This document shows positions 49,860 through 60,703 of a stretch of 64,000 bases of DNA, piece after piece. Both the position numbers and the translations under genes were made by a program. The number at the start of each line of letters is the position of its first letter. Within the stretch, counting starts at the first letter, position 1. The DNA is from Weissella muntiaci (GTDB lineage Bacteria > Bacillota > Bacilli > Lactobacillales > Lactobacillaceae): assembly GCF_008107635.1 (NCBI RefSeq), contig NZ_SDGZ01000003.1, positions 62,001-126,000 of the forward strand, written 5' to 3'. The notes below the pieces were generated by a model. The model ran no database searches. It was not told the origin of the DNA and saw only the letters and a program-made list of their open reading frames with translations.

Positions 49860-52211
49860 TTATCTAGTCCTTACGGCTTCCTGTGATTGATCTTGAATAA
49901 CTTGTTCTTGTAATTTAGTTGCATTGTTACTCTTAACTGTCTTGCTGCTTAACGCCTCGTAGTGGATTACTTCTCCGTTTGCCAGCCTGTCTGATAAAAA
50001 ACGCGTCACCTCGGATCCTGCATGCGTTACCTCCATGAGTTCTGCGCTCTTATCCGAATCGGCTAAATTCATAAATGCATCTGTCAAACTGCCTTTTTTA
50101 CCCTCTTGACCTTCAGCGGATCCATTTGAGTTCACTTGCGACAATTCTTCTGGATCAAGTCCTAGGTTTTTAAGCACGACATAACTTGTCAAATTAGCTT
50201 TTGCTTCCCGTAAATGGCTATCTTTATCAACTGCTGCATCATTTGAATTTTGATATAGCGAGACCTTACCTACCTCATAGGCGAGTGTCTGTACCTTATC
50301 GAGGTTAGACATATCGGGGCGAAGAATAATCGTATTATTCTCAGGATGTTTACTATCTGTATAAATTGCACCCTTGTGACTGAAAGCCCCACCATAAACT
50401 TCATTTGGACTGTGACTAGCGTTGTTATCTAAGAACGTATTTGCTTGAGCATCGTTATCAACAACTCGATAACCTTGCTTCTCGACATATTGTTTCAACA
50501 CGCCATAGGCATTTGCCAAGTGCTGTGGTGAATTATCAATATGTAAATCAATTGGGCGTTGAGGTAAAAGCCTCTTTAGATCCTCAGTTGTCGCATTTGT
50601 TTGCGAAATATCAAATACGTTCTGAATCGGATAAAACTTACTTTCCTTGGTATTTAAAATACCGGCATTCGCATCTTTACGTTGCTGCTCAGTTGCTTGA
50701 TTCCATCTCACAATCTCACCATCAGGAGTAACGATTGTCTTTATATTTTTGGGCGCGCCAAATGTTTTGATACCTTTTCCTTTGGCTTGCTCGTGCAGCA
50801 CTTGGATACCTTCATTTTGGAACTGTTCGTATCCCATAACGATCGTTGCATTGGGTCGCTGACCATAAATGGCCCAACTATTACTAGGTGAGAATTTTTG
50901 ACCCTGTGCTACAAAATCAAGCAACTCACGGACTTTCGCACTATCCTTTTGACTCGCTTGGACATTTTTCATCGCATTCGAAATGATAGCTACATTCCTG
51001 GTACGGTTTTCCAGCGCACGATCTTCCTTGTTAGTTGTGGTCTTATTAGTTGCTGAACTCGAACCAACACTATTAACATCCTTAAGGGGCTTTTGTTTTG
51101 CTCTAGCTCCGACCACGTTATCGCCTCTACTAGGTATGAATGAACTATCAAGGTCTCGAAGCTTATACAAGGTGTCATAACGCTTTTTATTCTCTTCAAG
51201 TGAGAACTGCTCAATACCTTTAACTCCAGCTTTTAGCTGATCATTCCAATCCTTGCCCTCGACTGGTATTTGTCGAACTACTTCCATATGTTCATGCCAG
51301 CTGTAGCCGGTATAAATCTCATTGGCAAAGTTCATTCCTGCCAGGTCATTATCAGTGGCAATGATCAACTTTTCAGGTAATGAATTATTTCTTGCTTGGG
51401 TCATGATATTAAGTTGGTTTAATACCTTATTTGTATTAAGCCCTGATAATGACAACACCGTTGTATTCTCGTGACGTAACGTTCCTAGATTTTGTTGCGT
51501 ATAGGAAAGCGCATCTATTGGCGCTTCAAAAACAATTAGGTTATCCGTGCCGTTACCAAATTTCAGATTGAAGCCATAATTTGTATCGGAAGAGTAGCCA
51601 ATTCGCTTTTCAGTTCCACGTTTACCAAACTTTTCAAAGTCAACGTCCGTCCCCTGGACATCTAGACCAACAACTTTCGAGTCTTCATTGATCCACGGAA
51701 ATAAAATTGCTGGTTTCATCCATTCACCAGTCTCTTTGTCTTTTCGTGGTGTACCTTGTTTGATAACCCCACTCTTCAGTAAAGGTTCAACAAACTTTGG
51801 ATGAAAGCCACGGACATTTATCAGGTAGTCTTCAGTGTTTGTAGTGGTCTTTGCAGTACGCCAGCGTCCAAAATCAAAATCTTCCTTCTTAGAAACTGGG
51901 GCCGTGTAATCAGCTTTTGTACTTTCATCCATTGACCCATAAGCTCGACTGAAGGCAGCCCATTCTTTCCAAGCAGACTTTTTATCCATTTCAAACCAGT
52001 TCTCAATAAAATCACCTAAGTCACCATAAACATCTCCAGCAGGGCTTGAGTACCACTGGAAGGTATTCTTTTCAAGATTTACAACTAATCCATGACCGTT
52101 TTTTTCTGTTAAATGAATCGTATTGCGGCCATGTGGCTCGTATCCAATAGCTTTGTGGTCCAAATAGGCCTTAATTGGAATAGCTTTCATCGCTTCACGA
52201 TTAATTGCCAT
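49860..52211 (-). CDS. Toprim/DUF3991 primase-like protein fused to an ArdC-like region (LtrC type)
   Basis: The protein has 783 residues. The N-terminal part (about 1-290) has DUF3991 and a Toprim-like fold (NLIVFEAPIDALSYTQQ, IIATDNDLAGMNFA), as in plasmid primase-like proteins. After a Ser/Asn/Thr linker, residues about 410-530 resemble the ssDNA-binding domain of ArdC (DFVAQGQKFSPSNSWAIYGQ, ATIVMGYEQFQ). A zincin-like region follows at about 600-700. Its usual HExxH is replaced by AYEVGKVSL, so it is probably not a protease. Roles in priming or protecting the incoming strand are likely. The ATG at 52211 has GGAGG upstream. Confidence 0.78.
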   Translation of the reverse strand: MAINREAMKAIPIKAYLDHKAIGYEPHGRNTIHLTEKNGHGLVVNLEKNTFQWYSSPAGDVYGDLGDFIENWFEMDKKSAWKEWAAFSRAYGSMDESTKADYTAPVSKKEDFDFGRWRTAKTTTNTEDYLINVRGFHPKFVEPLLKSGVIKQGTPRKDKETGEWMKPAILFPWINEDSKVVGLDVQGTDVDFEKFGKRGTEKRIGYSSDTNYGFNLKFGNGTDNLIVFEAPIDALSYTQQNLGTLRHENTTVLSLSGLNTNKVLNQLNIMTQARNNSLPEKLIIATDNDLAGMNFANEIYTGYSWHEHMEVVRQIPVEGKDWNDQLKAGVKGIEQFSLEENKKRYDTLYKLRDLDSSFIPSRGDNVVGARAKQKPLKDVNSVGSSSATNKTTTNKEDRALENRTRNVAIISNAMKNVQASQKDSAKVRELLDFVAQGQKFSPSNSWAIYGQRPNATIVMGYEQFQNEGIQVLHEQAKGKGIKTFGAPKNIKTIVTPDGEIVRWNQATEQQRKDANAGILNTKESKFYPIQNVFDISQTNATTEDLKRLLPQRPIDLHIDNSPQHLANAYGVLKQYVEKQGYRVVDNDAQANTFLDNNASHSPNEVYGGAFSHKGAIYTDSKHPENNTIILRPDMSNLDKVQTLAYEVGKVSLYQNSNDAAVDKDSHLREAKANLTSYVVLKNLGLDPEELSQVNSNGSAEGQEGKKGSLTDAFMNLADSDKSAELMEVTHAGSEVTRFLSDRLANGEVIHYEALSSKTVKSNNATKLQEQVIQDQSQEAVRTR

Positions 52212-52473
52212 GGTTAACCTCCATTCCTGCACCACTCTCCATGTGACTAGCTTGATCTTGTGACTTTGGTAATGGACGTACACTTCTAACAAAACGTTCG
52301 ATTTCATCAAGATCATCAGTTTCCAAGTTAGTTTGAAGGATTCCCATCAACTCAATTAGGTACTCATCCTTAGCCTGCTTTGTGATCTCGGCAAGTTCAT
52401 TGACTTTTTCTTGAGCGACGTTCAATTGTTCCAATTTCTTCTTTAATTTGTTCTTTGCATTTACTGTTGCCAT
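52201..52473 (-). CDS. Small coiled-coil protein, first gene of the transfer operon
   Basis: The protein has 90 residues. A helical, heptad-like N-terminal half (KLKKKLEQLNVAQEKVNELA) and a middle helix (DDLDEIERFVRSVRPLP) lead to a polar tail. It resembles in size the small relaxosome-accessory or regulatory proteins that open many transfer operons, but no family is certain. AGGAGA precedes the ATG. It overlaps the Toprim/ArdC-like gene by 11 nt. The promoter with the shared GGCGCAA motif lies just upstream. Confidence 0.6.
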   Translation of the reverse strand: MATVNAKNKLKKKLEQLNVAQEKVNELAEITKQAKDEYLIELMGILQTNLETDDLDEIERFVRSVRPLPKSQDQASHMESGAGMEVNHGN

Positions 52474-52595: not shown

Positions 52596-52770
52596 CCCCA
52601 GTCCCCGCAAGCGGGGTCAAATTTACTACGTACGTTCTGCCTCCAGTCACAGCTATTTTGTCTCTGTGCCACCAAATTTATAGCATCTGGCAGAGTGGCT
52701 AACAAGCAAGCTTGTAAACCACTCTAGCCAAGATACAAGGGTAAATGAACGGCAAGCCGCCCTTGTATCT
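52596..52770 (+). repeat. Structured leading-region element, copy 1 (three hairpins)
   Basis: Hairpin 1 is CCCCGC-AA-GCGGGG (52603-52616). Hairpin 2 spans 52689-52729: GGCAGAGTGG / CCACTCTAGCC outside, ACAAGC / GCTTGT inside. Hairpin 3 spans 52731-52770: AGATACAAGGG / CCCTTGTATCT outside, CGGC / GCCG inside. A further fold follows at 52795-52858 (TGTCAC / GTGACA, GCTGT / ACAGC). The element starts in the divergent intergenic region and precedes the gene at 52889. Confidence 0.85.
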
Positions 52771-52888
52771 CGGCTGCCAACTGCAATTAATTCTATGTCA
52801 CGACGACAAAAAAACAGCTGTAACAGGCGACAGCCGTCCGAAAGGTTTTTGTGTGACAAATCTATATTTTTTAGTTAGGAGTTTTTTC

Positions 52889-53164
52889 ATGAAAAAGAAA
52901 GAACCTTTGTTTGACCGTGCTTTACGTTTTGTTGAAGCACAAGGGAAAGAACCTATGTACCTGCCCGGCCGATTAGCTTTATTAGCTGATGAGAACCCTG
53001 ATAGGCACGGGAAACTTACTATCTCACTGTGGCATGTGGATGATGCCAACCGGCTAACACATAAAATTCATGAAGTTACCTATTGGTATTCCTACCAAAA
53101 TAAGTTTGTAAATCTGTTCAATGTAACGGATATTTTAACTATTGCCTTAAAGTACACAAGATAA
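52889..53164 (+). CDS. Leading-region protein, unknown (91 aa)
   Basis: The protein begins MKKKEPLFDRALRFVEAQGK and continues with PMYLPGRLALLADENPDRHG and a strand-rich end (KLTISLWHVDD, HEVTYWYSYQNKFVNLFNV). It is soluble, with no known domain. The ATG at 52889 has TTAGGAG upstream; the longer frame through the hairpin element is not coding. It is the first of four plus-strand genes (52889-54177) behind structured element copy 1 and 119 nt after its last hairpin. An anti-defence or establishment role is possible from position only. Confidence 0.65.
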   Translation: MKKKEPLFDRALRFVEAQGKEPMYLPGRLALLADENPDRHGKLTISLWHVDDANRLTHKIHEVTYWYSYQNKFVNLFNVTDILTIALKYTR

Positions 53165-53178
53165 GAGGAGATTAAATA

Positions 53179-53538
53179 ATGGGACTAGATATGTATCTTT
53201 CAACGACAACCAAGCAAGAACGTATGGTTTTCTACTGGCGCAAAGCTAATCAAATTCGTGAATGGATAGCAAATAGAGCTAATGAAGATAGGGAAGAACA
53301 AATTGAATACCGTCTTTCAAAAAATGAACTTACTAACCTTTTAGAAGATATTCAAAAGGTCATGAGCAAACCGGAATTAGCATCTGATATTTTACCAACT
53401 GCCAGTGGATTTTTCTTCGGCTCAACTGAATACGACCAATATTATTTCGCTGAATTAGCACGCACTCTGGAAGAATTAAAACCTATCGTGGACGATTTGA
53501 ACAAAAACGAAACATTGTTATATGGGGAATGGTGGTAA
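53179..53538 (+). CDS. Phage/plasmid conserved hypothetical protein (119 aa)
   Basis: The opening MGLDMYLSTTTKQERMVFYW followed by RKANQIREWI, and the segment LPTASGFFFGSTEYDQYYFAEL near residues 74-95, are the recognisable pattern of a widespread phage and plasmid protein sometimes mislabelled in databases. Its function is unknown. Family members usually lie among accessory or early genes. The GAGGAG ribosome site is good. The gene follows its neighbour by 14 nt and abuts or overlaps the next gene. Confidence 0.72.
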   Translation: MGLDMYLSTTTKQERMVFYWRKANQIREWIANRANEDREEQIEYRLSKNELTNLLEDIQKVMSKPELASDILPTASGFFFGSTEYDQYYFAELARTLEELKPIVDDLNKNETLLYGEWW

Positions 53539-53540
53539 AA

Positions 53541-53972
53541 GTGACAAGAAGTTATTATGATGAATTTTCTAAATTATCCGTAACTCAAATGCCACAGGCC
53601 ATTGCAGATATGACTTACGCATATAATGAGACACAAGTTCCCGCTAAGCATTATAAGGAAATGCTAGGGAAACAATTTGAAGAACTAATGGAAGCCCAAG
53701 CCAGTGTCAAATTAGTTGACGTGCTGTTCTCTACTCTTAGCAGTCTGCAAAAAGAAAGCCCCCGCCTTTTCTTTCAAGCATTACTTTTACTTGATTTAGG
53801 TATTAAGCCAAAAGGTTTAACAGCACAACAATATCAAGCTATGTCAGTTACAGCTGATAAATTTGAGCAAGACAAAAAAGCAAAAATGCTTGATAAGGAC
53901 ATTCTTGGCCTGTTTAATAACATTCTTAAAAATGGCGTACTCTACAAAATGAAGGAGGAAGATAATGACTAG
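53541..53972 (+). CDS. Leading-region helical protein, unknown (143 aa)
   Basis: This is a mostly helical soluble protein (SVTQMPQAIADMTYAYNETQ; YKEMLGKQFEELMEAQASVK; KAKMLDKDILGLFNNILK). The start is uncertain. The ATG at 53529 lies inside the preceding gene with its Shine-Dalgarno too close, while the GTG at 53541 has GGTGG 6 nt upstream. I recognise no family. It overlaps the following 70-residue gene by 8 nt (translational coupling). Confidence 0.6.
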   Translation: MTRSYYDEFSKLSVTQMPQAIADMTYAYNETQVPAKHYKEMLGKQFEELMEAQASVKLVDVLFSTLSSLQKESPRLFFQALLLLDLGIKPKGLTAQQYQAMSVTADKFEQDKKAKMLDKDILGLFNNILKNGVLYKMKEEDND

Positions 53973-54177
53973 AAAAGTACAAATTCAATATGTAGACTCT
54001 TGGGAATTTACGACCGAGGTAGAAATTCCCGACGGTATGAGTACAAAAGAATTTGCAAAAGATTTTTTGGAAAAGGAAGATTATTTTACTGAAAAATTTG
54101 AACGCACGAATATGCAAGTTCAGACCAGAGACTTAGATACTGGCAAAACAGAGAGGTTACAAGATATTGATGTCTAG
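53965..54177 (+). CDS. Small acidic leading-region protein (70 aa)
   Basis: The protein begins MTRKVQIQYVDSWEFTTEVE and continues IPDGMSTKEFAKDFLEKEDY, then a final strand VQTRDLDTGKTERLQDIDV. It is small, acidic and alpha/beta, with no family recognised. AGGAGGAAG precedes the ATG. Its TAG stop forms the first bases of a small TAGGGC / GCCCTA hairpin that leads into structured element copy 2. It is last in the four-gene unit. Confidence 0.6.
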   Translation: MTRKVQIQYVDSWEFTTEVEIPDGMSTKEFAKDFLEKEDYFTEKFERTNMQVQTRDLDTGKTERLQDIDV

Positions 54178-54194
54178 GGCTCTGCCCTAACCAG

Positions 54195-54389
54195 CCCCAG
54201 CCCCCGCCAGCGGGGATCGAATTATAACCCTATGCCAGTCAATATTGCCATATATCACTAGATTCAACGCACCGTTACATTTCCTTCGTCATTTTGACAT
54301 GGCGTGTCGCTCTAAGTGCGGCTGCGCCCCACCAAGACCGAATCGTAAAGCAAGGGCAAGCTCCGTCGGCAAGCCGACCCTTGCTTTAC
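54195..54389 (+). repeat. Structured leading-region element, copy 2
   Basis: Hairpin 1 is CCCCGC-CA-GCGGGG (54202-54215). Hairpin 2 at 54307-54341 has the outer arms TCGCTCT / AGACCGA (one mismatch), the inner stem GTGCGGC / GCCCCAC (one mismatch) and the loop bases CTAA / CAAG. Hairpin 3 at 54345-54389 has GTAAAGCAAGGG / CCCTTGCTTTAC outside and TCGGC / GCCGA inside. A TAGGGC / GCCCTA hairpin precedes it. It is about 96% identical to copy 3 over some 280 nt. Confidence 0.88.
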
Positions 54390-54482
54390 TACATCACCAG
54401 GTCGTCAATCCTTGTAAATTTCACTAGGCGTTGAAGAACGCTAACATATACGGCAAATTGACCGTCAAGAGGAGTCTGAATT

Positions 54483-54662
54483 ATGGCAAGATACCAAGCA
54501 TTCGTTTCACAAACAGTAGTTGCAGTTGTTGATTTAAAAGCCGGCAGTCTTGAAGAGGCTAAAAAAGAAATACAAAATCTAGTCGATAGTGATGCTGTCT
54601 ATTCTCTAGACTTTGACTCCACCAATTCGGATTTTGAAATTGATAGTATCGAAGAGCATTAA
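54483..54662 (+). CDS. Small leading-region protein (59 aa), unknown
   Basis: The protein reads MARYQAFVSQTVVAVVDLKA, then GSLEEAKKEIQNLVDSDAV, and ends in an acidic tail (IDSIEEH). One strand-helix-strand unit is likely. AGAGGAG lies 8 nt before the ATG. It is 94 nt after hairpin 3 of element copy 2 and is followed 24 nt later by the 75-residue gene. I recognise no family; small acidic proteins in this position could be DNA mimics, but that is a guess. Confidence 0.6.
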   Translation: MARYQAFVSQTVVAVVDLKAGSLEEAKKEIQNLVDSDAVYSLDFDSTNSDFEIDSIEEH

Positions 54663-54686
54663 AGATTAATTCAGAAGGGTAAAATT

Positions 54687-54914
54687 ATGACTAAAAAAGA
54701 ACAAAGTTTGTTTGATTTTTTAATTGAGTGGGTAACTGACAAAGCAACAGCGTATCTATTTATAAATGGAGGCTACAATGGTTATGTCTATGGTTCAGCC
54801 GGCTATGTAGAAGACCCTGACGATGAATATTGGGACGAGCAAGTAAAACTTGGTGCCATGACAATTGAAGACGCGATACTTGAACACCGATATCTAATTG
54901 GCAGTGTACTTTAA
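54687..54914 (+). CDS. Small acidic leading-region protein (75 aa), unknown
   Basis: The protein begins MTKKEQSLFDFLIEWVTDKA, followed by an aromatic, acidic middle (YGSAGYVEDPDDEYWDEQVK) and AMTIEDAILEHRYLIG. The high Asp/Glu/Tyr content would suit a DNA-mimic antirestriction protein of the ArdA kind, but it is much shorter and I see no ArdA motif. AGAAGGG precedes the ATG. A very strong terminator follows directly, ending this two-gene unit. Confidence 0.6.
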   Translation: MTKKEQSLFDFLIEWVTDKATAYLFINGGYNGYVYGSAGYVEDPDDEYWDEQVKLGAMTIEDAILEHRYLIGSVL

Positions 54915-54930
54915 TCAGCGACTAATTGGA

Positions 54931-54977
54931 ACAAACGAAAAGACCAATCGTAAAAATGATTGGTCTTTTTCGTTTGT
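54931..54977 (+). terminator. Strong intrinsic terminator before element copy 3
   Basis: ACAAACGAAAAGACCAATC pairs with GATTGGTCTTTTTCGTTTGT (19-bp stem, 8-nt loop). It closes the 54483-54914 unit and shows that the following element starts a new transcription unit. Confidence 0.88.
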
Positions 54978-54984
54978 GAACCAG

Positions 54985-55179
54985 CCCCAGACCCCGCAAG
55001 CGGGGATCGAACTATAACCCTATGCCAGTCAATATTGCCATATATCACTAGATTCAACGCACCGTTACATTTCCTTCGTCATTTTGACATGGCGTGTCGC
55101 TCTAAGTGTGGCTAAGCCCCACTAAGACCGAATCGTAAAGCAAGGGCAAGCTCCGTCGGCAAGCCGACCCTTGCTTTAC
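54985..55179 (+). repeat. Structured leading-region element, copy 3
   Basis: Same layout as copy 2: hairpin 1 at 54992-55005, hairpin 2 at 55097-55131 with inner stem GTGTGGC / GCCCCAC, hairpin 3 at 55135-55179. About ten differences from copy 2 over 283 nt are visible by eye; the hairpin 2 loop changed (TGC to TAA) while the stem was kept. It lies 91 nt before the methylase start. Confidence 0.88.
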
Positions 55180-55269
55180 TACATCGCCAGGTCGTCAGTC
55201 CTCGTAAATTTCACTAGGCGTTGAAGAACGCTAACATATACGGCAAATTGACCGTCAGAGAGGTTTGAA

Positions 55270-56856
55270 ATGTTTGAAAATGAATTCTACCCTACACCAC
55301 AAAATGTAATTGGTAAAATGCTAAAGGACTTGGACTTAAATACTATTGGTTCAGTTTTAGAACCTTCTGCGGGTAAAGGGGATATTGCCACTGCTTTAGC
55401 CGAAAGAACTAAAACAGTGTATTCAAATCGTACATTAGATATTGATACGGTTGAAATTGATGAGAACCTTGTTGCAATCCTCAAAAGCCAAAATATTAGG
55501 GTCATACATAATGACTTTTTGACTCTCAAGACTTTTAAGAAATATGATTTAATCATCATGAATCCCCCTTTCTCCAATGGAGATAAGCATTTATTAAAAG
55601 CATTAGATATGCAAAAAAATGGTGGCCAAATAATCGCCTTGTTGAATGCTGATACTATCAGAAATCCATTTAGCAATATTCGCCAACAATTGTTAAGAAC
55701 GTTAGATGAGAGAACTGATTATTCAATCGAATATCTAACCGAGAGTTTTTCGAATGCGGAACGTTCAACAAATGTAGATGTTGCTCTACTTAGAATAAAT
55801 GTAAAGGAAGTTCAGCAACCTTCATATTTTAAATCCGAACTTGAAAAAGCTGACAAAATGCAAGAGATTGACCAAGAAGAAACCTTTCAATTGGCCAATA
55901 GTGATATGTTACGGGAAATCGTACACCAATATAACTTAGAAACAGAGCTTGGCGTAAAGCTAATAAACGAATTTAAGGCAATGAAACCGTTCCTTTTACG
56001 CTCATTTGACGAGGATAGGAAGAATGATACTATCTTATATCTGCAAACTAATGTAATTGGCAACTATTCTTCTGAGAATGTTTCAGTTAATGATTATCTG
56101 AAATTAGTTCGTTATAAATACTGGAGTGCACTATTTGACAATAGTAAATTCACTGGCGACTTAACTACAAACCTACTCTCAGACCTTCGAGGTCGAATTT
56201 CTGAATTTGCAGAGTATGACTTCACATTGTTTAATATTTACAGTTTGCAACTAGATCTAAGTAAGAACATGACTGCTAGCCTAGAGGATACTATTATAAA
56301 ATTGTTTGATAAATTATCTCATCAGTTCTCATATGCAGATTATTCAAGTAACGTTCACTACTTTAACGGTTGGTCTACAAATAAAGCATGGTACATTAAT
56401 AAAAAAGTAGTCATACCTATTGATAGCCCTTGGAACTTCCTGAATAATATTTCCTTCAGTACAATCATTTATGAGTTGCGAGACATTGAGAAGGTTCTAA
56501 GGTATTTCAATGGTAACAAGCAGATTAGCACTGACTTATCTGAAGCTTTGAAAGAAGCTGAAGCAATTGAACAATCAAGAAATATTGAAACAGAATTTTT
56601 CTATATCACCTTTTACAAGAAGGGCACGGCTCACATTACATTTAAGGATTTGGAATTACTAAAGCGATTCAACATATATGCCGGACAAAAAAAGGCATGG
56701 CTTCCCCCTACTTATGGAAAAGCTGCCTATAATGATATGAGCCAAACTGAGAAAGATGTTATTGATGCATTCGAAGGCGAAGCAAGTTATAACAAGGTTT
56801 ATAGCAATAACGATAACTATATTGTTGATACAAATAAAATACTGTCATTGAATTAG
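55270..56856 (+). CDS. Orphan N6-adenine-type DNA methyltransferase with DUF4942
   Basis: The protein has 528 residues. The N-terminal methyltransferase domain (about 1-190) has SAM motif I in VLEPSAGKGDIATAL (about residue 35) and the catalytic NPPF motif in LIIMNPPFSNGDK (about residue 98). The C-terminal 300 residues match DUF4942 (DRKNDTILYLQTNVIGNYSS, WSTNKAWYINKKVVIPID, FYITFYKKGTAHITF, KKAWLPP). No restriction gene is near. It could methylate the element to avoid host restriction. It is the only gene between element copy 3 and a strong terminator. Confidence 0.85.
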   Translation: MFENEFYPTPQNVIGKMLKDLDLNTIGSVLEPSAGKGDIATALAERTKTVYSNRTLDIDTVEIDENLVAILKSQNIRVIHNDFLTLKTFKKYDLIIMNPPFSNGDKHLLKALDMQKNGGQIIALLNADTIRNPFSNIRQQLLRTLDERTDYSIEYLTESFSNAERSTNVDVALLRINVKEVQQPSYFKSELEKADKMQEIDQEETFQLANSDMLREIVHQYNLETELGVKLINEFKAMKPFLLRSFDEDRKNDTILYLQTNVIGNYSSENVSVNDYLKLVRYKYWSALFDNSKFTGDLTTNLLSDLRGRISEFAEYDFTLFNIYSLQLDLSKNMTASLEDTIIKLFDKLSHQFSYADYSSNVHYFNGWSTNKAWYINKKVVIPIDSPWNFLNNISFSTIIYELRDIEKVLRYFNGNKQISTDLSEALKEAEAIEQSRNIETEFFYITFYKKGTAHITFKDLELLKRFNIYAGQKKAWLPPTYGKAAYNDMSQTEKDVIDAFEGEASYNKVYSNNDNYIVDTNKILSLN

Positions 56857-56889
56857 TTCAGATTTGTTCATTGATAGGGAATATTTACT

Positions 56890-56922
56890 AAAAGGCTAGC
56901 CACGAAATGGCTGGTCTTTTTT
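56890..56922 (+). terminator. Terminator after the methylase gene
   Basis: AAAAGGCTAGCCA / TGGCTGGTCTTTT forms a long stem with a 5-nt loop and a T run. Confidence 0.85.
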
Positions 56923-56936
56923 AATTGTTCAACCTG

Positions 56937-57133
56937 CCCCAGTCCCCGCAAGCGGGGTTCAAACAAAACCATAACCCAAAGGTTTCAAAAATATCATCAT
57001 TTAGTACCTATCACTGCCCTGTTCCATTTCCTTCGTCATTATGGCACATGGTGCCGCACTAAGTGTGCAAAGCACACCAAGAGCGGATCGTAAAACAAGG
57101 GCAAGCCTTCGGTCGTACCGACCCTTGTTTTAC
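56937..57133 (+). repeat. Structured leading-region element, copy 4
   Basis: Hairpin 1 is CCCCGC-AA-GCGGGG (56944-56957). Hairpin 2 at 57054-57086 has CCGC / GCGG outside, GTGTGC / GCACAC inside, and CTAA / CAAG loop bases. Hairpin 3 at 57090-57133 has GTAAAACAAGGG / CCCTTGTTTTAC outside and GGTCG / CGACC inside. The stem sequences differ from copies 1-3 but pair fully. Confidence 0.87.
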
Positions 57134-57226
57134 TACATCCATATGCCTCCAATCCTTGTAAATTCCACCAGGCAGTGAAATCTACTACTCAATAATTTAT
57201 TTTTTGACCTTTAGGAGGGTTTGATC

Positions 57227-57691
57227 ATGGTAACTAAACTACATAATACTGAAGCATCATATTTCATTAGAATTTTTAACGGTGAATCAAAAGCACAGAT
57301 TATCAATACCTTTGAACTTTTGAAAGAATATCGCCTAGTCGGTAACAACTCGGATGCCACCGAGTTCATCAAAGAGCTTGAAGACAGCTATGACACAGCA
57401 AAAGCTTTGTACGATAGCATCAAACTATTGGATGAGCCAGAAGCATATAGCGTAAATGCTTGGGGTTATGAACAAACAAACTATGAAAATATCACGGTAA
57501 TTGGTACATATAGAAATGCCGTGATTGCGATTGGTAAATACGAAGTTTATGCAATTTCTAAAAAGAAATATTTAGAACGAACATACGCATATTTAGATGC
57601 CAATGGTGTGAGATCTACTAACTGGGAAGAGCCATATTCACTTGATGAGATTGCTAAACAGAGGCTACAAAATGCGTATTTTGGTCATTAA
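57227..57691 (+). CDS. Leading-region protein, unknown (154 aa)
   Basis: The protein begins MVTKLHNTEASYFIRIFNGE. Its N-terminal helical half (ELLKEYRLVGNNSDATEFIK) and strand-rich C-terminal half (ITVIGTYRNAVIAIGKYEVY) suggest two small domains. No family is recognised. AGGAGGG lies 7 nt before the ATG; the TTG two codons earlier is not the start. It is the sole gene between elements 4 and 5. Confidence 0.62.
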   Translation: MVTKLHNTEASYFIRIFNGESKAQIINTFELLKEYRLVGNNSDATEFIKELEDSYDTAKALYDSIKLLDEPEAYSVNAWGYEQTNYENITVIGTYRNAVIAIGKYEVYAISKKKYLERTYAYLDANGVRSTNWEEPYSLDEIAKQRLQNAYFGH

Positions 57692-57719
57692 AAGAAACTG
57701 TAGGGCTTTGCCCTACCCA

Positions 57720-57895
57720 CCCCAGACCCCGCCAGCGGGGATCGAACCAATTTACCTGCCGCCTTTTCTTCCTTTAACATTTCCTTTTGCCATCCACACA
57801 ATAACCCAATCAGTTGTACTAAGGGCATTCGCCCCAAGTACAACTAAGATAAATAACAAGGGTAAATGCACGGCAAAGCCGCCCTTGTTATTTAT
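57720..57895 (+). repeat. Structured leading-region element, copy 5
   Basis: A GTAGGGC / GCCCTAC hairpin (57700-57716) precedes it, as in copy 2. Hairpin 1 is CCCCGC-CA-GCGGGG (57727-57740). Hairpin 2 at 57813-57844 has GTTGTACT / AGTACAAC outside and GGGC / GCCC inside, with AA / CA opposed. Hairpin 3 at 57849-57895 has ATAAATAACAAGGG / CCCTTGTTATTTAT outside and CGGC / GCCG inside. Confidence 0.87.
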
Positions 57896-58008
57896 CCCTG
57901 ATTTGGTTACTGCATTCCTGTCAAAATGAAATAAATATTAAAGGAGTTAAAAAGGACCGTCAGGAAGGTTTTTCAGCCTAATCCAAATTAGATAGGAGTT
58001 GATCAATT

Positions 58009-58305
58009 ATGGTGACTGTGAATGTAGAAACACCTAGTCATGATTTCATTCTCAAAGTTTCACACGAAGAATCAGCGGTGTTATTCCAGATCACCGGTTC
58101 TAAATATATTGGCGTAAGTTTTATCTTTCGTACCAGCGATGATGCTAGCGCTGAAGAGCAGTATTATTATTTGCTCAGGGTCATAGGTACCACATTTTTC
58201 AAAAAAATGTCTGAAGCGAAAATCCTTTCAAACTTGTATACACTAATGCACACAGTTCTAAAAAACTGGGAGCAGACCACAATGGAGGCGAATATTAATG
58301 ATTAA
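58009..58305 (+). CDS. Leading-region protein, unknown (98 aa)
   Basis: The protein reads MVTVNVETPSHDFILKVSHE, then SAVLFQITGSKYIGVSFIFR, and ends in a helical region (SNLYTLMHTVLKNWEQT). An N-terminal beta sheet plus a helix suggests a compact fold, but no family is recognised. A TAGGAG ribosome site precedes the ATG. It overlaps the next gene by 8 nt. It is first in a three-gene unit after element copy 5, 114 nt past hairpin 3. Confidence 0.6.
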   Translation: MVTVNVETPSHDFILKVSHEESAVLFQITGSKYIGVSFIFRTSDDASAEEQYYYLLRVIGTTFFKKMSEAKILSNLYTLMHTVLKNWEQTTMEANIND

Positions 58306-59312: not shown

Positions 59313-59349
59313 AAAAAAACTCATACATTAAATGCATGAGTTCCTTTTT
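59313..59349. terminator. Bidirectional terminator between the small membrane gene and abiH
   Basis: AACTCATACATT / AATGCATGAGTT forms a stem with one mismatch and T runs on both strands between convergent genes. Confidence 0.82.
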
Positions 59350-60703
59350 AAATTTCAATCAATTCTAGCTTATCTTCATTATTAAGTTGAGTTAAAATAG
59401 TTTTCCCAATCAAGTCGCCTTGGACACTCGTTGCATAAGTTTCAAGTAACTTTGCCACGCTTAATTTTTGTGACATAAGAATACGTTCGGCAGAGCTCCC
59501 CTCATAGATCGAATAATAAAATTCAAGTTTAATATCCATATTCAATAATCCAACATCATTGAATATTTGAAAAAAATAACCATAATCTGCCTCACCAAAT
59601 GAATGACCGTAAAATTTTATTTGCTTAATTCCTTTGTTATAAAGGGTCGGCTGTGGATTTTGTCTATTTCTCATAGTTCTATATGATTTTGTTAAACTAT
59701 ATTCGATCATTGATAAGTCGGCATCAATATTTGCATTATCTATTCCAAATATTATTTCACCTTGCTTCTTTGCTATTCCATGTATATTTTTTGCAAATAT
59801 TGTCGCGCCATCATTTTCGATATTAGATAAATTTAATTCAGGTTGAGTATAGTTGAAATTCAATAAATTGAAGCTTGCGTTCTTTTTTCCAGTTAACAAC
59901 GTTAGGATTTCAGAACTATTTTTTTTATACATTTCAACTTCTTGATTTTCTATTAAAAAGAATTTGAATGAATTTTCAAACTTTGTTAATTCTCCTGCCA
60001 ATATACGTATGAAATAATTTTCATTGTTTTTAGTTGGAACTTTCTCGTCCCCATAGACACTATATTTATCAAATAAACAAATAAACATTATAAATGCTTC
60101 TCTAGAGAAAAAATCATCACGTGAAACAAAACCATCTTTTGATTTTTCGAAACCATTTGTAAAAATGCTAGTCACTCTAATATATAAGTTTGCTTCAAAA
60201 TCGCTATCTCTGACAGAATTTATTACTCTATAAATTAACGACTCAATATCTTGCCAATTGAAGTCCATGTTAAAATTACTAAAATTTGAGTTATAGAGAA
60301 GCAGCACTTCCCATACTGACCAATCGTTTCCCATTAAATATTCTATGACTTTTATTCCATCTTCTAATTCTGGAATTCTATAGAATATTTGCTGTGATAG
60401 CGGCACAAAATCAACAGCATTTGCCGGAAGTTTCATATATTCTACATCTATGATGCTTGCTACTGTATCAAAATATATTTGGCCTATTGAATTTTTTTTG
60501 AGTTGATCCTCTCGCTTTTGCAAGTCGTTTCTGAGCTGAACGGTACTTTTTATTTCAGGAAATCCATCAAAATCCATTCGGCTTAATTTCGTACCTAAGA
60601 ATTCTTTATACGAGCTTGGAAGCCCCGCCGCAAGGTCGAATCCATTACCGAGAATTATTAATTGCTCTACCGCATCAATTTTCGTTTCTTCTTCATTCTT
60701 CAT
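59348..60703 (-). CDS. abiH: AbiH-family abortive-infection protein
   Basis: The 451-residue protein has the AbiH signatures: a nucleotide-binding-like LIILGNGFDLAAGLPSSYKE near residue 15, FNLLNFNYTQPEL at about 280, NIHG at about 310, and IKFYGHSFGEADYGYFFQ near 380. AbiH was described from lactococcal plasmids as a phage abortive-infection system; the mechanism is unknown. The gene is very AT-rich compared with its neighbours, a sign of separate transfer. No partner gene is visible. No strong ribosome site is seen at the assigned ATG, so a nearby start is possible. Confidence 0.8.
   Translation of the reverse strand: MKNEEETKIDAVEQLIILGNGFDLAAGLPSSYKEFLGTKLSRMDFDGFPEIKSTVQLRNDLQKREDQLKKNSIGQIYFDTVASIIDVEYMKLPANAVDFVPLSQQIFYRIPELEDGIKVIEYLMGNDWSVWEVLLLYNSNFSNFNMDFNWQDIESLIYRVINSVRDSDFEANLYIRVTSIFTNGFEKSKDGFVSRDDFFSREAFIMFICLFDKYSVYGDEKVPTKNNENYFIRILAGELTKFENSFKFFLIENQEVEMYKKNSSEILTLLTGKKNASFNLLNFNYTQPELNLSNIENDGATIFAKNIHGIAKKQGEIIFGIDNANIDADLSMIEYSLTKSYRTMRNRQNPQPTLYNKGIKQIKFYGHSFGEADYGYFFQIFNDVGLLNMDIKLEFYYSIYEGSSAERILMSQKLSVAKLLETYATSVQGDLIGKTILTQLNNEDKLELIEI

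Follow-up and report, generated by a model that had tools for sequence, protein, structure and literature searches.

Five copies of a structured element in a Weissella conjugative element

We analyzed a 64,000-nt stretch of Weissella muntiaci DNA (the window; contig NZ_SDGZ01000003.1 of assembly GCF_008107635.1, positions 62,001 to 126,000 of the forward strand), in which a structured element is repeated five times. Judging by its proteins, the window appears chromosomal left of ~22 kb, and a conjugative element appears to extend from ~24 kb past the right edge. This conjugative element carries type IV secretion system (T4SS) genes on the - strand, including the coupling protein, and a MobL/MobP2 relaxase gene lies at ~70.0-71.5 kb in window coordinates; an RHH protein was recognized by a weak Pfam match, and other sequences read as a putative SSB and a putative UmuC-like polymerase. 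The first-pass annotation had reported five copies of a three-hairpin element starting at 52596, 54195, 54985, 56937 and 57720. A pattern search found hairpin 1 (H1) at each of these positions and each copy precedes + strand genes within the window, as had been described.

The H1 pattern CCCCAGNCCCCGCN{1,3}GCGGGG matched five times in the window against 0.00 matches expected by chance. Across the whole source genome the pattern was again found five times, and a model of hairpin 3 (R1) recovered the same five copies plus the reverse strand of copy 5; neither search revealed a sixth copy anywhere in this genome. Hairpins 2 and 3, with the CAAGGG/CCCTTG core and the covarying arms of the latter, agree with their initial description. 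The internal loop of hairpin 2 had been given as uniform in copies 2 to 5: its 3' side is CTAAG in copy 3, whereas copies 2, 4 and 5 have CCAAG. The distance from hairpin 3 to the next start codon, reported as 91-119 nt, came to a similar 114, 90, 87, 90 and 112 nt when counted from the outer boundary of the match to the hairpin-3 model, with the start after copy 2 set by eye.

Folded architecture, covariation and age of the copies

The H1 pattern yielded 32 sequences, of which 8 cut-off partial copies were removed, leaving 24 distinct Weissella elements; these are mutually related, so that counts over the 24 are not independent. When folded with G-U pairs forbidden, all 24 elements presented H1 followed by an imperfect outer stem (P0) bearing hairpins 2 and 3 as two arms. 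This outer stem comprises 22-53 enclosing pairs (39 in copy 1) and forms with the two hairpins a three-way junction, the outer-stem structure spanning ~170 nt in all. The hairpins of the proposed three-hairpin order are present, but the stem that encloses two of them had been missed. Hairpin 3 bears a one-sided bulge of 8-9 nt (TAAATGAA, TAAATGCA, CAAGCTCCG or CAAGCCTT), which is probably the key feature of the element.

We then analyzed covariation in an alignment of 21 distinct forms of hairpin 3 (19 pairs, 399 cells) relative to 500 shuffles. Pairing was observed in 93.0% of the cells against 75.7% after shuffling, 12 of the 19 pairs had changed on both sides (6.9 after shuffling) and 66 cells presented double changes (18.1 after shuffling); for each of these measures the shuffles gave 0/500. 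Sliding the partners by 1-3 columns reduced pairing to 30-50%, and only one of the 399 cells was a G-U-type change of one partner alone. The number of pair types was ordinary (24 vs 22.2; 137/500 shuffles). In the alignment used (A2), three rows have their inner-stem columns displaced by one position, a displacement that lowers the apparent support for the structure. These results indicate that hairpin 3 covaries. The claim that the folded form, as RNA or single-stranded DNA (ssDNA), is under selection is borne out, since covariation stays strong with more homologues aligned.

The copies do not derive from one recent duplication. Among the four best matches listed per copy, copies 1, 4 and 5 are respectively 92, 91 and 91% identical to a copy of W. 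oryzae, from which we conclude that they are old. Copy 4 is also 89% identical to a second W. oryzae copy, its best match within the window reaching 75%, and the next-best match of copy 5 is another W. oryzae copy (78%). Only copies 2 and 3 form a recent pair (96% identity).

Folding is more stable on the template strand

With DNA energies, all 24 Weissella elements folded more stably on the template strand of the genes behind them than on the coding strand. To remove the effect of composition, the template-versus-coding energy difference was compared with shuffles of the same sequence and expressed as a strand z. The Weissella elements gave a mean of -2.59 (22/24 below 0; 17/24 below -1.65). 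As references we used the ssDNA promoters Frpo1 and Frpo2 of the F plasmid, which according to PMC9849209 are required for early expression in recipients of the genes behind them. With the ColIb sequence upstream of ssb and two BLAST homologues added, this Frpo/ssi set gave a mean of -3.46 (5/5 below 0). Conversely, the T-box leaders of the same genome gave a mean of +1.09, with 3/12 below 0 (only 3 of the 12 loci used pass the Rfam cut-off), and random chromosome windows a mean of -0.33 (16/30 below 0). The shuffle test leans the right way for both ssDNA promoters and RNAs, and it places the Weissella element with the ssDNA promoters. Overall, sequence statistics support the conclusion that folding is selected on the template strand of the downstream genes. 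The ambiguity between RNA and ssDNA left by the first-pass annotation is resolved towards ssDNA of this strand, which is probably also the transferred one.

Single mismatches on the coding strand of the Weissella elements amounted to 1 G.T vs 37 A.C, a skew in the same direction as the energies. This raw 1x1-mismatch test was demoted because random windows show a composition skew, and the shuffle-controlled energy test replaces it. The same count over six F/ColIb regions gave 1 vs 11 in three regions bearing the motif described below and 6 vs 2 in the three others.

A bulge motif shared with Frpo

The hairpin of Frpo2 reads GTCC-AGGG-[TAAATGAA]-CAG and hairpin 3 of copy 1 reads ACA-AGGG-[TAAATGAA]-CGGC. 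They share 13 identical bases in a row at the same structural place, a GGG/CCC stem with a one-sided bulge on its 5' side, and a motif match, GGGTAAATGAAC, is present in both. We searched for the motif GGGTN{0,1}ARATGNAC. Within 20 kb of F it occurred at Frpo1 and Frpo2 alone (0.07 expected), in 22.5 kb of ColIb it occurred once, upstream of ssb (0.06 expected), and copies 1 and 5 were its sole sites in the window (0.06 expected). Six further matches lie in 18 kb of a ten-copy array in another genome, G691 (0.04 expected).

The putative origin of transfer

In 5/5 Weissella loci compared, an inverted repeat followed by CCCTTAACCTGTT occupies the gap before the RHH and relaxase genes. This origin of transfer (oriT) layout is the same as in pWBG749, whose nick site (nic) lies in CCTTATGCTCTTACGG, 3' of the repeats. 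A 2015 study (PMC4652767) delineated the nic of pWBG749-type plasmids to that sequence, the repeats being on the 5' side of the core. It also states that the strand piloted into the recipient is the one downstream of the core. In an L. brevis plasmid whose relaxase is annotated as MobL, CTCCCCTTATCCTGTTG precedes the RHH gene (core given as CTTATCCTG). We take TATCCTG to be the RP4-type nic.

The conserved core suggests that the template strand of the element genes is also the transferred strand: with this layout, the - strand would be transferred and would hence be the template of the element-driven + strand genes, its 5' end probably lying ~10 kb right of the window. Cleavage would be expected in CTTAACCTGTT, on the relaxase-coding strand of the Weissella oriT. 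The elements point toward the putative oriT in the contig of the window as well as in W. kandleri. The gene order is the same in W. kandleri: oriT is followed by the relaxase and a UmuC-like gene, then by the elements, which lie on the opposite strand, and by the divergent primase-like gene. Gene order and oriT core fit a leading-region position in both cases, but the direction of transfer depends on the putative nic and disagrees with the published pLS20 nick.

Distribution beyond Weissella

The exact H1 pattern was found in 7/397 genomes of the family, all of them Weissella. At least 118 stretches of genome contigs contain the pattern; we used eight Weissella ones (L045, L058, L067, L076, L104, L111, L122 and L133) and took the others, many of them from GC-rich genomes, as chance matches. 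Three viral contigs with the pattern yielded no R1 match. Model R1 itself matched 71/395 genomes of the order at E<=0.01, weak matches included, representing 32/80 genera. At E<=1e-5, it matched 31 genomes of the order (our own count of the list) and 4/250 genomes of the class, one being the source genome. Matches scoring alike on both strands are probably plain hairpins and were not used. In PLSDB, no DNA match was found to the window elements, to two other Weissella elements or to a G691 copy.

The array of G691 (contig C14, 34.9-57.7 kb; L223, L224) comprises ten copies on one strand over 23 kb, accompanied by small genes including a cytosine methyltransferase, with a MobQ relaxase on the same contig. 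The genes between these copies are candidate anti-defence genes. Twenty-one non-Weissella elements were kept by pattern (6 from G691): 17 presented a strand z below 0, 12 below -1.65 and 2 above 1.65. Their template strand was more stable in 18/21, with one tie (L203) and two exceptions (L201, L219). Two elements, L203 and L202, come from small contigs that resemble plasmids (L228, L230), where hairpin 3 occurs once per unit and opposite to an open reading frame (ORF) that looks Rep-like by eye (2/2; no NCBIfam match). This suggests a role like that of a single-strand origin (sso), possibly of a class that could not be named.

A predicted single-stranded-DNA promoter and its alternatives

We consider it probable that each element is a Gram-positive ssDNA promoter of the Frpo type, its promoter activity being predicted by analogy. 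During conjugation, the - strand of the window would enter the recipient 5' end first from an oriT ~10 kb past the right edge. While single-stranded, it would adopt at each element the long imperfect stem from which hairpins 2 and 3 branch. As at Frpo, the folded duplex would recruit the host RNA polymerase, with the conserved bulge of hairpin 3 as the probable contact, and the polymerase would copy the transferred strand towards its 5' end, yielding immediate mRNA of the + strand genes and perhaps also a primer for second-strand synthesis. Once the complementary strand is made, the hairpins would dissolve into duplex and expression would stop. Establishment and anti-defence genes would thus be expressed early and only briefly, and the terminator-like hairpins before copies 3 and 4 may help silence these genes in the donor.

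In line with this model, sigma-70-like sites numbered 11 in the element region vs 19.9 in shuffles, and a single + strand site (57774-57802, 9/12) falls in an element (copy 5). The terminator-like hairpins 5' of copies 3 and 4 leave little room for an ordinary promoter.

Several observations weigh against the promoter interpretation. Two of the 24 Weissella elements present no template-strand preference beyond composition, and the mismatch skew is itself partly compositional (random windows gave 21 vs 7, and the composition null only p=0.0096). No mismatch signal was found upstream of ColIb ardA, of L190 position 4593 or of L186 position 5785; the coding strand is even more stable in two of these three regions, none of which carries the GGGTN{0,1}ARATGNAC motif. 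Copies 2, 3 and 4 also lack this motif and present a different bulge, and no consistent pair of -10/-35 boxes was seen by eye in the arms of the folded strand. Model R1 gave no match to Frpo in either F or ColIb, so that the link to Frpo consists of a short motif in a shared setting rather than of demonstrated common descent; convergence on the same polymerase contact is possible. The inferred transferred strand leads into the relaxase gene, which to our knowledge would be atypical. The published nick of the related MobL plasmid pLS20 lies on the other strand and, if valid in Weissella, would imply that the + strand is transferred. Finally, strand preference is not uniform on the small plasmid-like contigs, where the hairpin may only prime DNA synthesis.

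Alternatively, the folded transferred strand could act as an sso only, starting the second DNA strand via RNA polymerase or primase; its place before operons would then be incidental and the genes would have other promoters. The single hairpin-3 core per small plasmid-like unit, opposite to the Rep-like ORF, speaks for this, as does the three-stem-loop sso known for pBAA1/ICEBs1. Frpo, too, reportedly primes as well as transcribes, a finding said to be that of Masai and Arai. We nevertheless regard this explanation as unlikely, because the five copies each lie directly before + strand genes with none found elsewhere in the genome, and because the ten copies of G691 lie on one strand, with most longer ORFs of the 18 kb listed running the same way. 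Besides the one weak site of copy 5, no + strand sigma-70-like site lies in an element or in an element-to-gene gap. With filters off, R1 gave no bulge-bearing match among the alignments shown for pUB110, pTA1015, pTA1060 and pTA1040, the best match (17.2 bits, E 0.004) being a plain hairpin found on both strands. We know of no sso arranged in series before operons. Start trinucleotides of DnaG in hairpin 2 were not used, as they would fit either strand.

The elements could also act as double-stranded DNA, as an insulator or terminator against read-through or as a cruciform site for a plasmid protein. There is a precedent in EGeRS1-B of pLS20, which blocks read-through in its native orientation according to PMC8708921, but such a device offers no evident reason for a strand preference, yet the template strand is preferred, and we find it very unlikely. 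Least probable of all is that the fold forms in the mRNA of the genes behind it, as a cis-acting leader of the riboswitch or attenuator type: the position 87-114 nt before start codons would suit it and RNA folding is possible too, but the would-be RNA strand folds less well than its complement in 24/24 elements where T-box leaders tend the opposite way, the G-U kind of one-side change is confined to 1/399 hairpin-3 cells, a promoter would have little space 5' of copies 3 and 4, and no Rfam family matched at gathering threshold.

Features and neighboring genes of the locus

The coordinates of the elements and of neighboring features are listed in Table 1. The second conserved stretch, roughly GACCGTCARGARGGTTT by eye, closes each element; it overlaps the ribosome-binding site in copies 2-4, and a separate ribosome-binding site follows in copies 1 and 5. 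Four - strand G runs lie across H1 of copy 5 (window 57700-57740) and of several relatives, though not of all copies; a G-quadruplex reading of these runs was dropped since they were seen by eye and only in a subset.

Table 1. Elements and neighboring features in window coordinates (ends of P0 set by eye in all five copies)
Feature	Position	Strand	Evidence
Copy 1 hairpin 1 (CCCCGC/GCGGGG)	52596..52616	+	H1 pattern match, 0 expected
Copy 1 P0 around hairpins 2 and 3 (CAGCT/AGCTG, TTTTGTC/GACAAAA, GGCAG/CTGCC)	52650..52820	+	Fold without G-U
Copy 1 hairpin 2	52693..52724	+	Sequence and fold
Copy 1 hairpin 3, bulge TAAATGAA	52727..52774	+	R1, 60.8 bits (among the sequences from which R1 was built)
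Copy 2 hairpin 1	54195..54215	+	H1 pattern match
Copy 2 P0 (TTCAACGC/GCGTTGAA, TTACA/TGTAA, TTGAC/GTCAA)	54263..54435	+	Fold
Copy 2 hairpin 2 (CTAA/CCAAG internal loop)	54308..54340	+	Sequence and fold
Copy 2 hairpin 3	54342..54392	+	R1, 45.3 bits
Copy 3 hairpin 1	54985..55005	+	H1 pattern match
Copy 3 P0	55053..55225	+	Fold
Copy 3 hairpin 2 (CTAA/CTAAG)	55098..55130	+	Sequence and fold
Copy 3 hairpin 3	55132..55182	+	R1, 45.3 bits
Copy 4 hairpin 1	56937..56957	+	H1 pattern match
Copy 4 P0 (TCACTGCC/GGCAGTGA, GGCA/TGCC)	57011..57178	+	Fold
Copy 4 hairpin 2	57054..57086	+	Sequence and fold
Copy 4 hairpin 3	57087..57136	+	R1, 52.5 bits
Copy 5 hairpin 1	57720..57740	+	H1 pattern match
Copy 5 P0 (CCTTTAA/TTAAAGG, ATTTC/GAAAT, TTTTG/CAAAA, AATCAG/CTGATT)	57771..57944	+	Fold
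Copy 5 hairpin 2 (GTTGTACT/AGTACAAC)	57813..57844	+	Sequence and fold
Copy 5 hairpin 3, bulge TAAATGCA containing GGGTAAATGCAC	57848..57896	+	R1, 71.5 bits; motif match
Second conserved stretch	52800-52860, 54450-54480, 55250-55270, 57205-57225, 57955-57975		By eye
Terminator-like hairpin, 15 nt before H1 of copy 3	54938..54969	+	Hairpin listing (on - strand; T-rich + strand tail read by eye)
Intrinsic-terminator-like hairpin, 16 nt before H1 of copy 4	56890..56920	+	Hairpin listing
Divergent primase-like gene, among leftward T4SS genes	49860..52316	-	Pfam Toprim, weak ArdC-N
First gene after copy 1, unknown protein	52889..53164	+	ORF; small genes to 54177 follow
Gene after copy 3, methyltransferase-like N-terminus and DUF4942	55270..56856	+	Pfam DUF4942 3.9e-31, MTS 1.1e-7
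First gene after copy 5, unknown protein	58009..58305	+	ORF; no Pfam match

Homologues of the primase-like gene also adjoin element clusters in relatives. The small genes at 53179-53535, 53529-53969, 53965-54174 and 54687-54911 presented no Pfam match. A DUF4942 protein is also annotated near the nikA/relaxosome genes of ColIb-P9 (L190:20227-21075). An AbiH-like abortive infection gene lies beside the element genes at 59348-60703, followed by an insertion sequence with an integrase core. In W. oryzae, a weak Rfam match to the Listeria small RNA rli28 (47 bits, gathering 45; L182:6163-6352) lies just 3' of the relaxase gene.

Comparison with known systems

The sso of rolling-circle plasmids and sso1 of ICEBs1 resemble the Weissella element in being stem-loops that act on one single strand only, and several sso classes use RNA-polymerase priming. 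They differ in that, for the types covered (ssoU and pTA/ICEBs1), the sequences of pUB110 and the pTA plasmids are not matched by R1.

The first-pass annotation knew of no described family that matches the element; the analogy drawn here is with Frpo, and EGeRS1 of pLS20 provides a further analogue. Like Frpo/ssi, the Weissella element lies upstream of putative leading-region operons whose genes run toward the putative oriT, and the template strand, probably the transferred one, folds better than its complement. It differs in its Gram-positive host, in its three-way junction (hairpins 2 and 3) plus H1, in the lack of F's long A/T inner hairpin in hairpin 3, in that no -10/-35 was found and in that R1 does not match Frpo. 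Promoters of this kind have so far been established in Gram-negative plasmids: the accessible parts of the open-licence literature on Frpo/ssDNA promoters, leading regions and pLS20 name no tested Gram-positive one, and the available text of PMC11541004 reports no Frpo-similar sequence in a Streptococcus pneumoniae island. The Weissella elements bear on how anti-defence genes of Gram-positive conjugative elements are expressed before the double-stranded state. A compact family with a shared core provides a model with which leading regions can be searched for in lactic acid bacteria and related taxa, a route through the promoter to unrecognized anti-defence genes, and a test for the folding strand that requires sequence only.

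According to Val-Calvo et al. 2021 (PMC8708921), five regions of inverted repeats (EGeRS1) precede the establishment operons of pLS20 and no sigma-A promoter was found in them. The same authors deem an ssDNA promoter highly unlikely given the length of the regions and the lack of a visible promoter in the fold, their chief ground being the published nick strand. In our test the template strand was also the better-folding one in EGeRS1 (5/5, mean z -4.56, for a 260-nt portion close to the 3' end), and over whole regions this strand is 26-32 kcal/mol more stable. No R1 match was found in the pLS20 stretches searched, and the motif was absent from the 45.8 kb of pLS20 searched. The likeness to the Weissella element, as far as the published description extends, lies in five copies before establishment operons, inverted repeats, the lack of a sigma-A promoter and the better folding of the template strand; the difference lies in a length of 420-751 bp and an unlike sequence.

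The oriT of pLS20 (L189:7660-7830) holds CCCCTTATGCTCTT beside a CACCAT/ATGGTG repeat, 40 bp before the published nick. This contains a pWBG749-type core, CTTATGCTCTT, with the repeat 5' of the core, and the published nick is on the other strand, a conflict for experiment to settle. Were this core the actual nic, pLS20 would transfer the opposite strand. The element family described here also gives a reason to re-map the pLS20 nick, on which a large share of the published argument against such promoters in Bacillus plasmids depends.

A broader reading is conceivable, although we put it below an even chance: one ancient or convergent module for RNA polymerase entry on ssDNA, a GGG/CCC stem with a T(N)ARATGNAC-type bulge, may be found across the Gram divide. 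It would serve as Frpo in enterobacteria, as serial ssDNA promoters in conjugative elements of Lactobacillales and as sso in small rolling-circle plasmids. EGeRS1 would be a further ssDNA promoter system, and the published nick strand of pLS20 would be wrong, its oriT carrying the CTTATGCTCTT core oriented so that the template strand is the transferred strand.

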